64,000 nucleotides of DNA. Origin: Owenia fusiformis. Taxonomy: Eukaryota; Annelida; Polychaeta; Sabellida; Oweniidae. Shown piece after piece: positions 1,385 through 16,331 of this stretch (positions are counted from its first letter, which is position 1; each line of letters begins with the position of its first letter). The notes below the pieces were generated by a model. The model ran no database searches. It was not told the origin of the DNA and worked only from the letters and a program-made list of their open reading frames with translations. The stretch is from positions 31,297,564-31,361,563 of the forward strand of contig CAIIXF020000007.1 of assembly GCA_903813345.2 (NCBI GenBank). The letters run 5' to 3'. Position numbers and translations under genes: made by a program.

Positions 1385-4300
1385 ATGTTTATTACTGTTC
1401 GATTTGGAGGTAAGTCTTAGTTTACAACTTAATAATTAAATTAAATTAAAATTATAAAAAAAACATACTAAGTAGAAAACAAGGTTAAGGTCCTTGATAT
1501 TCATATACATTAAATCAATTTTTGCTATTTTGACATGTTTGAATGAGATTGTATTATATCTTGTATGTTTGTTCTCTTTCATCTCAAACTAAAATCCATG
1601 AAAAGTGAGTTTAATGCTATTTATTCTAAAATTATTTTATCTATTTAAATAAAAATAATGACCTATATTTTTTCCAAAAGTAACTGAAGATACCATAGAA
1701 ATTTACCCAACATCATTTTATCGGTATATTTAAATTATTTTGTATCATACTTTTTTACACTTCTTTAATATATTTCATGTGAGTGTTAATAAAGAAACCT
1801 TTCATTTTCATTTGTTATTGACCCATTAATGGGAAATAAGTTATCACCCTTTGACTTCTCATTTATATTACTGCCCCTTGTACTTTTATTTGTAAATGTC
1901 CATTGATTACATACAGCCTGACAACTGACCAGGAACAATTCAAGATTTTCTTAATGCAAATATTTGATAGAGTCAGGAAATGAGAAAGTTAATCAAGGAA
2001 ACATTAATCTATAGTGAAATATCAATAGGTCATCTGTAGTATACATATATGCTATACACTAGACTGTGTGTCAGCAAACTGAATGATTACCAATACAGCT
2101 TAGTGAACAAATAGGCTAATAGAGAAGGAGATAAACCAGCAACTTAATTTTAGCCTATTAGTCTTGTGTTCCATCCATTAAAAAATGATAAATGATAAAA
2201 TGGAATCTCATTTCTCCAATTAACAATTTAGAATGGTTCCAAGAACCTAGACCCAGGTCAGGTGTATTCAAAGACTTGTCACATGTCTCTATTAAATACA
2301 GTATCATTATTATAGCATGCCATTCACCTCTAAGCTGTTAAAACACATTACCTTACCAAATCAGAAAATAATTAATTACAACAATGCATCAATTTTGTTG
2401 AACTTTTTCAGATCACCAAACAGCCATATTCAACCCTAACTGTAGAACATACAACCTGCTCTCACATATAAAGGAGAAATGTGAATGTAACACTGCAGGT
2501 AAGTCATATATAAATGAGAAATGTGATTGTAAAGCTGCAGGTAAGTCACATATAAAAGGAGAAATGTGATTGTAACACTGCAGGTAAGTCATATATAAAA
2601 GAGAAATGTGATTGTAACACTGCAGGTAAGTCATATATAAAGGAGAAATGTGATTGTAACACTGCGGGTAAGTCATATATAAAGGAGAAATGTGATTGTA
2701 ACACTGCAGGTAAGTCAAATATAAAGGGGAAATGTGATTGTAACACTGCAGGTAAGTCATATATAAAGGAGAAATGTGATTGTAACACTGCAGGTAAGTC
2801 AAATATAAAGGGGAAATGTGATTGTAACACTGCAGGTAAGTCAAATATAAAAGAGAAATGTGATTGTAACACTGCAGGTAAGTCATATATAAAGGAGAAA
2901 TGTGATTGTAACACTGCAGGTAAGTCAAATATAAAGGGGAAATGTGATTGTAACACTGCAGGTAAGTCATATATAAATGAGAAATGTGATTGTAACACTG
3001 CAGGTAAGTCACATATAAATGAGAAATGTGATTGTAAAACTGCAGGTAAGTCACATATAAAGGGGAAATGTGATTGTAACACTGCAGGTAAGTCATATAT
3101 TAAGGAGAAATGTGATTGTAACACAGCAGGTAAGTCATATATTAAGGAGAAATGTGATTGTAACACTGCAGGTAAGTTACATATAAAAGAGAAATGTGAT
3201 TGTAACACTGCAGATAAGTTACATATAAAAGAGAAATGTGATTGTAACACAGCAGGTAAGTCATATATTAAGGAGAAATGTGATTGTAACACTGCAGGTA
3301 AGTCACTTATAAAGGGGAAATGTGATGGTAATATTGCAGGTAAGTCATATATAAAGGAGAAATGCGATTGTAACACTGCGGGTAAGTCATATATAAAGGG
3401 GAAATGTGATGGTAACACTGCAGGTAAGTCACATATAAAAGAGAAATGTGATGGTAATATTGCAGGTAAGTCATATATAAAGGAGAAATGCGATTGTAAC
3501 ACTGCGGGTAAGTCATATATAAAGGAGAAATGTGATTGTAACACAGCAGGTAAGTCATATATAAAGGAGAAATGTGATTGTAACACTGCAGGTAAGTCAT
3601 ATATAAAGGAGAAATGTGATTGTAACACTGCAGGTAAGTCATATATTAAGGAGAAATGTGATAGTAACACAGCAGGTAAGTCATATATAAAGGAGAAATG
3701 TGATTGTAACACAGCAGGTAAGTCATATATAAAGGAGAAATGTGATTGTAACACTGCGGGTAAGTCATATATAAAGGGGAAATGAGATTGTAACACTGCA
3801 GGTAAGTCATATATAAAGGAGAAATGTATTGTAACACTGCAGATAATTCATATATAAATGAGAAATGTGATTGTAAAACTGCAGGTAAGTCACATATAAA
3901 GGGGAAATGTGATTGTAACCACTGCAGGTAAGTCATATATAAAGGGGAAATGAGATTGAAACACTGCAGGTAAGTCATATATAAAGGAGAAATGTATTGT
4001 AACACTGCAGGTAAGTCATATATAAAGGGGAAATGAGATTGTAACACTGCAGGTAAGTCATATATAAAGGAGGAATGTGATTGTAACACTGCAGGTAAGT
4101 CATATAAAAGAGAAATGTGATTGTAACCACTGCAGGTAAGTCATATATAAAGGAGAAATGTGATTGTAAAACTGCAGGTAAGTCACATATAAATGAGAAA
4201 TGTGATTGTAACCACTGCAGGTTAGTCATATATTAAGGAGAAATGTGATTGTAACACTGCAGGTAAGTCACATATAAAAGAGAAATGTGATTGTAACACT

Positions 4301-15500: not shown

Positions 15501-16331
15501 TGGAACATTCTCAGCATACCAGTACACCTCTTCTTTATATCAGTGTTCATAGGTGAGTACATTCTCAACATACCAGTTCACCTCTTCTTTATATCAGTGT
15601 TCATAGGTGAGTACATTCTCAACATACCAGTACACCTCTTCTTTATATCAGTGTTCATAGGTGAGTTCATTCTCAACATACCAGTACACCTCTTCTTTAT
15701 ATCAGTGTTCATAGGTGAGTACATTCTCAGCATACCAGTACACCTCTTCTTTATATCAGTGTTCATAGGTGAGTACATTCTCAGCATACCAGTACACCTC
15801 TTCTTTATATCAGTGTTCATAGGTGAGTACATTCTCAACATACCAGTTCACCTCTTCTTTATATCAGTGTTCATAGGTGAGTACATTCTCAGCATACCAG
15901 TACACTTCTTCTTTATATCAGTGTTCATAGGTGAGTACATTCTCAGCATACCAGTACATCTCTTCTTCAAATCAACATTCTTTGATGAATGGATTATGAA
16001 CACTCTAGTGCACCCCATCTTATATCAGTGTTTATTTGATTTATTTATTTTAACAAAATTTTGGAATCTGATCTTATATTTTTCAGGCCTGATGCCATAC
16101 AATTATATATGTGTGCAGACAGGGAGCATGTTGTCTGAGATTACCTCAGTTAATGACATATTTACAACAACCAGGATGATACAGCTGATTTGTATAGCCA
16201 TGGTTGCTTTAGTACCAGGATATATCATAAGAAAGTACCATAGATCAAAGGAAGACCTGGGGACTTTAAATTCTGATAATATTGGTCCTCTAGAGAAGAG
16301 TTTGCGAAATGGAGTAGTGAAAACAGAATGA
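12559..16331 (+). CDS. TMEM41A: TMEM41A, DedA/VTT-family membrane protein
   Basis: Coding exons are 12559-12659, 13516-13672, 13945-14106, 14337-14475 and 16087-16331. The phases fit exactly: 804 nt, 267 aa (human 264). The N-terminal segment [20 protein letters not shown] is a membrane helix. The VTT core follows: [69 protein letters not shown] and [15 protein letters not shown], all close to human TMEM41A. The family (TMEM41B, VMP1) consists of ER-membrane lipid scramblases; TMEM41A itself is less studied. A cytosolic tail ends NGVVKTE. Exon 4's end and donor seed a 54-bp minisatellite in intron 4. That intron is 1611 bp (3 x 537), and an open frame runs from its last repeats into exon 5. 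The gene is tail-to-tail with the MAP3K gene, as in human. Confidence 0.95.
12678..12959. mobile_element. ~280-bp MITE in TMEM41A intron 1
   Basis: The left end TTATTATATCATTGCTAGAAATT is inverted at the right end (AATGTCTAGCAATGATATAATAAA). The interior includes GATTTGATTGGTCGAG and a GC-rich CCCGCCCGGG palindrome. There is no ORF. It abuts a second hairpin (12961-13113). Confidence 0.7.
12961..13113. repeat. Hairpin repeat, ~58-bp arms
   Basis: The left arm CAAATATTTCATTCTATG... GGGCAATACCTG... TTTCAATGATTTTTGC is matched by its reverse complement ending CATAGAATGAAATATTTG. The loop contains CCCTCGCCCTACGGGC. It lies in TMEM41A intron 1. Confidence 0.8.
14430..15965 (+). repeat. 54-bp minisatellite carrying a 5' splice site in each unit
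   Basis: The exonic copy plus 27 further units span donors from 14476 to 15931. Each unit is the last 46 nt of exon 4 (ATTCTCAACATACC to TGTTCATAG) followed by GTGAGTAC. About 26 of 28 donors read GTGAGT; exceptions are near 15284 (GTGTGT) and 15498 (GTGGAA). In exon frame each copy adds 18 residues of the type [19 protein letters not shown] 2-base deletion near 14841 and a 1-base deletion near 15500 shift and then restore the frame. Each unit also carries a branch-point-like CTCAAC, a pyrimidine run CCTCTTCTTT and an acceptor-like ATATCAG. Long open frames on both strands are by-products of the periodicity. Confidence 0.95.

Follow-up and report, generated by a model that had tools for sequence, protein, structure and literature searches.

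Two neighbouring genes of the annelid Owenia fusiformis carry long tandem arrays whose repeat unit joins the end of a coding exon to the start of the following intron. We read these arrays as junction minisatellites of the kind called 'mirages', and give this reading a probability of about 0.7. Boundary-spanning repeats are already known from lancelets; the present arrays, which are real and beyond chance, form a genome-wide case of this known kind, with an excess on the donor side that is of moderate strength. The window, that is, the whole stretch of 64,000 nucleotides analysed, corresponds to C7:31297564-31361563, and the genome scanned comprises 498 Mb in 525 contigs.

For the window, Tandem Repeats Finder returned both of the arrays that had been expected within 15 kb of each other. 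Array 1 has a period of 42, 47.9 copies and 91% matches (score 3322), and array 2 has a period of 54, 28.7 copies and 95% matches (score 2803); both are genuine tandem repeats, beyond chance. GC content across the window, taken in 2-kb steps, is 0.30–0.39; that of lancelets is about 0.41. In array 1 the unit is made up of 37 nt of exon end and 5 nt of intron start (42 bp), and in array 2 of 46 nt and 8 nt, respectively (54 bp), so that, as in mirages, the unit spans an exon/intron boundary at the donor of the gene model. In both arrays, the coding exon end itself supplies the first copy. The arrays had been thought to start exactly at the junction; their true starts lie 37 and 46 nt upstream of it, within the exon. 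The positions of the arrays and of the gene models that carry them are collected in Table 1.

Table 1. Arrays, exons and splice donors of the two genes (positions within the window)
Feature	Position	Strand	Basis
Exon 1, CXorf65-like gene	1385..1409	+	open frame joined to exons 2-5
Exon 2, CXorf65-like gene; last 37 nt form the coding copy of array 1	2412..2498	+	joined frame, Pfam Il2rg
Array 1, 42-bp unit, about 48 copies	2462..4469	+	repeat finding, unit/junction alignment
Inferred authentic donor, CXorf65-like exon 2	2499	+	open joined frame
Exon 3, CXorf65-like gene	5326..5442	+	open joined frame
Exon 4, CXorf65-like gene	6204..6275	+	open joined frame
Exon 5 with stop codon, CXorf65-like gene	6447..6637	+	open joined frame
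Exon 1, TMEM41-like (VTT domain) gene	12559..12659	+	joined frame, Pfam VTT
Exon 2, TMEM41-like gene	13516..13672	+	open joined frame
Exon 3, TMEM41-like gene	13945..14106	+	open joined frame
Exon 4, TMEM41-like gene; last 46 nt form the coding copy of array 2	14337..14475	+	joined frame, Pfam VTT
Array 2, 54-bp unit, about 29 copies	14430..15974	+	repeat finding, unit/junction alignment
Inferred authentic donor, TMEM41-like exon 4	14476	+	open joined frame
Exon 5 with stop codon, TMEM41-like gene	16087..16331	+	open joined frame

As had been proposed, each array contains a donor, and in both cases it is that of a well-supported gene model. In the first gene the joined exons form an open frame that encodes 163 aa and is recognised by Pfam as Il2rg (PF15874, E 9.7e-23), which we take to be the CXorf65 family. 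In the second they form an open frame that encodes 267 aa and includes a VTT domain (PF09335, E 4.3e-16), presumably of TMEM41 type. Both frames are open with the donor of the first copy, and to judge from these frames the first donor is probably the one used in vivo. Given gene models that use it, the remaining copies of both arrays are intronic and make up 1971 of 2827 bp (70%) of intron 2 in the CXorf65-like gene and 1499 of 1611 bp (93%) of intron 4 in the TMEM41-like gene, which fits the suggested route to intron lengthening. Elsewhere in the window, the interval separating the two genes holds apparent coding exons of the minus strand (about 7800-11940) that may resemble MALSU1. Further tandem arrays were seen at 53957-54416 (34-bp unit with CTACAGTGAAACC, 13.7 copies) and at 41913-42175 (107-bp unit). 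No matches were returned for the window by an Rfam scan at the gathering threshold or by a tRNA scan.

Copy numbers are those of a single assembly, and an assembly artefact could have inflated short duplications; we find this barely credible, as substitutions and indels scattered along arrays 1 and 2 distinguish their copies and many other contigs carry arrays of this type. A second alternative is that the introns were born by tandem duplication of an exonic AGGT site, the array being the intron itself. The model is a known one, some novel Drosophila introns being ascribed to coding-sequence duplications in the accessible text of PMC2891723, and the share of array 2 in its intron would suit it. 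This origin is nevertheless very unlikely: both introns have ordinary acceptors outside the arrays (tctattccag, ending at 5325, and tatttttcag, ending at 16086), none lies within a unit copy, and the presence of intron bases in the units suggests an intron older than the array.

Under the mirage-type reading, a short tandem duplication straddling the junction between a coding exon and its intron would create a second donor. If the first, coding copy were still spliced, the added copy would become silently intronic, and slippage or unequal exchange could then raise the number of intronic copies unhindered, so that the intron would become longer. Copies of this kind would be nearly neutral, and intron growth through such arrays is probably harmless.

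A different role had been put forward originally, in which selection maintains the donor copies because they offer alternative splice sites that lengthen the exon and keep its frame. In favour of this role, the unit lengths of both window arrays are divisible by three. AG/GTRAGT had been said to persist in more than 90% of copies. As in mirages, AG/GT signals are present in many copies; the exact motif was counted in 38 of 48 copies (79%) of array 1 and 24 of 29 (83%) of array 2, and only bare GT reaches 45/48 and 28/29. In array 1 the mean divergence is 0.044 for the eight donor columns and 0.052 for the remaining ones; the corresponding means in array 2 are 0.056 and 0.035. Eight-column blocks less diverged than the donor block number 18 of 42 and 47 of 54, respectively. 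The donor columns are thus no better kept than the rest, and donor conservation only reflects the general likeness of the copies. Of 20 further arrays, 14 show less variation in the donor columns than in the others (mean 0.024 versus 0.037, Wilcoxon p 0.048). The sample is biased, an array having entered it only if AGGTRAGT was intact in three consecutive copies, and this is therefore poor evidence of selection.

Reading frame speaks against selected donors as well. If the frame of the exon is continued into the repeats, the first stop comes after 68 nt (1.6 copies) in array 1 and after 377 nt (7 copies) in array 2, which rules out coding extension through the array. Later intact donors are in frame in 8 of 37 cases in array 1 and 13 of 23 in array 2, and both in frame and stop-free in only 1/37 and 5/23, so that a shift to a neighbouring copy would seldom give the frame-compatible exon that had been envisaged. 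The multiple-of-three property holds for the two window units (42 and 54) and does not extend to the genome: among 37 other donor arrays, a count that leaves out the window arrays and one irregular array, 10 have a unit length that is a multiple of three, in line with a chance rate of one third (p 0.49), and a preference is rejected. A further 11 donor arrays, with periods taken from their listed coordinates, include 2 such units. Selection of the donor copies is accordingly highly improbable, and they are not functional as alternative frame-compatible donors as first proposed.

To place the two arrays in a genome-wide context, triples of AGGTRAGT, defined as three motifs with gaps of 20–50 bases (repeat steps of 28–58 bp), were counted over the whole genome alongside three control motifs: the reversed motif, a second permutation (GATGRTAG) and its reverse. 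AGGTRAGT gave 1056 triples, the reversed motif 529, GATGRTAG 161 and its reverse 182, so that donor-motif triples are 2 to 6.6 times as frequent as those of the controls. Single sites, array copies included, number 33,163 for AGGTRAGT and 47,644 for the reversed motif; with this correction, which covers these two motifs only, triples per single site are 2.9 times as frequent for the donor motif. Pairs number 1542 and 996, and runs of two or more 486 and 467, which puts the donor motif ahead by a factor of 1.5 per site. An array of AGGTAAGT at C8:28166242-28166743, with 65-bp spacing, lies beyond the counted range.

When matches were grouped into arrays, the size of the excess depended on the control. 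Among the matches listed for C1 (62.2 Mb), 16 donor arrays stand against 8 reversed-motif arrays (p 0.013), the latter count excluding C1:19350485, which is itself a donor array. Among those listed for C1 and C2:1-27.44 Mb the numbers are 18 and 15 (p 0.16); both p values allow for motif frequency, with arrays clustered by eye. From C1 to C3:28.0 Mb, 28 donor arrays compare with about 6 for GATGRTAG, again among the matches listed. The donor places listed by preceding base represent 1008 of the 1056 triples, and beyond C1:12 Mb arrays with mixed preceding bases may be missed. Donor-motif arrays recur on many contigs, and the excess holds for triple counts against all three motifs. It could still be supposed that minisatellites are placed at random, that those covering a junction are tolerated since their extra copies are intronic, and that donors are no hot spot. 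The near-equal array counts for donor and reversed motif (18 versus 15) and the indifference of unit length to reading frame (10/37) agree with such random placement, and the excess of donor triples speaks against it; taken with the evidence below, we consider it possible but doubtful.

Whether the arrays lie at coding exon ends was examined by searching Pfam with reading frames that end at the junction, a match being taken as E<0.01. The sets compared were 38 donor arrays (those in the earlier listings of matches), two groups of lone AGGTRAGT sites (37 and 40), and 15 reversed-motif arrays. The group of 37 comprises every other lone site among 100 places listed in C1:1-2.5 Mb, and retains one (S43) that may be a stray repeat copy belonging to the nearby array at C1:442746. 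The group of 40 was hand-picked at intervals across C1–C10 among 100 places listed, with clustered sites left out and the list built with an arbitrary four-base extension of the motif. Exon ends recognised by Pfam were found for 11 of 38 arrays (Muted, NIF, Kringle, B56, Tudor, UDPG_MGDP_dh_N, UCH, FANCI_S2, MIR, Ig and MRPL52) and for 7 of 77 lone sites (4/37 and 3/40), an odds ratio of 4.1 (Fisher p 0.012). With scripted placement of the first copy the arrays fall to 9 of 38 (p 0.045), and against the 40 genome-wide lone sites alone the two counts give p 0.018 (11/38 versus 3/40) and 0.063 (9/38 versus 3/40). Two more arrays fall just above the E cut-off (tetraspanin, 0.016; DUF4904, 0.017), and a further two have PDB matches (NCS-1 and KIAA0895-like), excluded from the counts, as that search covered arrays only. 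Three PDB searches with exon ends gave no match at E 0.01.

Frame coverage was uneven between the groups, so that the exon-end comparison is not quite like for like. One frame was searched per locus, a second being added for arrays A03, A19, A20, A27 and A35 and for C1 lone sites S52, S53 and S59. About nine second frames of at least 20 aa in the arrays and seven second or third frames in the C1 lone sites went unsearched, while all 36 frames of at least 20 aa in the 40 genome-wide lone sites were searched. Loci with no frame of 20 aa were scored as misses, namely 5 of 38 arrays (A06, A13, A16, A25 and A26), 10 of 37 C1 lone sites and 8 of 15 control arrays. The first copy was placed by hand in A08, A10, A17, A20 and A21, which affects two matches (A17 and A21), and the similarity threshold for scripted placement, at first 0.60, was set to 0.72 once initial results had been seen.

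Arrays of the donor motif are thus found at coding exon ends more frequently than lone motifs are, at moderate statistical strength, and this excess, under hand or scripted placement, counts against random placement. In favour of the latter, one of the 15 control arrays is at an exon end too (SNF), and the longest open run before the site fails to part arrays from lone sites (p 0.088 and 0.30). The SNF match is control array L091 (C2:24840790-24842105), close to an SNF-symporter exon end, and junction arrays may therefore occur with other donor sequences. The original suggestion of a genome-wide process that amplifies junctions is partly supported, by the recurrence of the arrays and by the excess of triples and of exon ends; at the level of array counts the excess is less clear (16 versus 8 on C1, 18 versus 15 in the longer stretch). 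Donor-adjacent exon ends appear to be duplicated more often than other sequence, or such duplications to be better tolerated.

The most unexpected result is a crowding of breakpoints just behind the donor. The breakpoint set of 33 comprises 31 of the 38 genome arrays and the two window arrays, not every one being a proven exon end; 7 of 40 were dropped after values were seen, the first copy being unplaceable or non-coding in appearance. Exon parts have a median length of 36 nt, intron parts one of 12 nt. An intron part of at most 9 nt is found in 14 of 33 arrays, where about 4 would be expected under uniform breakpoints (binomial p 1.7e-5; 5e-5 in a simulation with chance matches). The exon part is the longer in 24 arrays, the shorter in 8 and of the same length as the intron part in 1 (p 0.007). 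When 38 of the 40 arrays are retained, 15 of 38 have a short intron part (p 4e-5). This clustering is a further point against random placement. In four arrays (A4, A7, A12 and A15), the upstream exon breakpoint carries the same RAGT as the donor, as expected for duplication via short matches.

A stronger proposition, which we regard as unlikely, would be that tandem duplication has mutational hot spots at splice donors and that these drive intron growth continuously and genome-wide. One breakpoint would then coincide with the GTRAGT hexamer or closely follow it, its partner lying in the exon about 35 nt upstream, and the cause might be short matches between donor and exon, or an event at the time of transcription involving, for example, U1-bound nascent RNA. 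A two-copy duplication of exon end and donor, with a 37-bp step, was seen in an ELO-family gene (L078, C1:820755-821230) and is perhaps a nascent array.

The donor is one of two boundaries involved, as in lancelets. At C1:45785700-45786250 (L139) the acceptor and the start of a DHX36-like helicase exon are repeated (PDB E 1.5e-15), and a second acceptor-side array (L145) lies at another plausible exon; that such arrays exist as well is in keeping with random placement. A scan with an acceptor motif gave 735 triples against 77 for its reverse, numbers not to be taken as a rate, many of the places listed belonging to one dispersed family, TTTTTTCAGAAATCTACCGTAAAAACTCC. This family consists of roughly 30-bp tandem units (e.g. 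C1:2468161 and C1:48347960). Mixed arrays were also encountered. About 22 copies of a 50-bp unit at C2:1839600-1841500 (L142) each hold an acceptor-like TTTTCAG and a donor-like CAA/GTAAGA, forming a tandem array of a 24-nt micro-exon-like piece, and a donor-spanning 49-bp array at C1:20246900-20248200 (L137) follows a plausible exon end and has TTTTCAG in most units.

Intronic minisatellites and VNTRs in general combine a short unit, many copies and divergence at the level of the copy. The present arrays share all three, and differ in that their unit includes a coding exon end and donor. Human introns arising from tandem arrays were reportedly described in a 2007 study, which PMC3488318 cites. 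The accessible text of PMC4039745, on intronic minisatellites of C. elegans, has no bearing on donors. Intron gain by tandem duplication has been treated in Drosophila (PMC2891723), where, in the part of that paper at hand, AG/GT sites are likewise multiplied by tandem duplication; there, new introns arise from exon sequence, whereas here an existing intron grows from its donor end.

The closest parallel is with the lancelet mirages, described in the available portions of two papers as tandem repeats across exon/intron boundaries in Adh3 and the globins BflGb6 and BflGb9 (PMC3087553), with troponin C and PGBD5 as further genes (PMC3902484). These have AG/GT signals in many copies, at 5' or 3' boundaries (PMC3087553, PMC3902484). 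The units are about 150–160 bp in the globins and 10–72 bp in Adh3, and BflGb6 haplotypes have 6 and 3 units (PMC3087553, PMC3902484). RT-PCR suggested normal splicing of mirage genes, and mirages were proposed as a source of new introns (both in the available text of PMC3087553). Boundary-spanning units and AG/GT in many copies are common to both systems. In the lancelet work, as far as its available portions go, the repeats occur in single genes with few copies, whereas here there are 48 and 29 copies and genome-wide recurrence. A genome-wide survey of boundary-spanning arrays was not found in the literature searched, from which most subscription papers were lacking; the word 'mirages' also occurs there in papers on maize genes (PMC4619961) and on pines (PMC13078855). 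In the accessible literature such repeats have so far been described gene by gene; in Owenia they become countable, with controls, and the breakpoint pattern provides a testable clue to intron lengthening and to the tolerance of duplicated splice sites.
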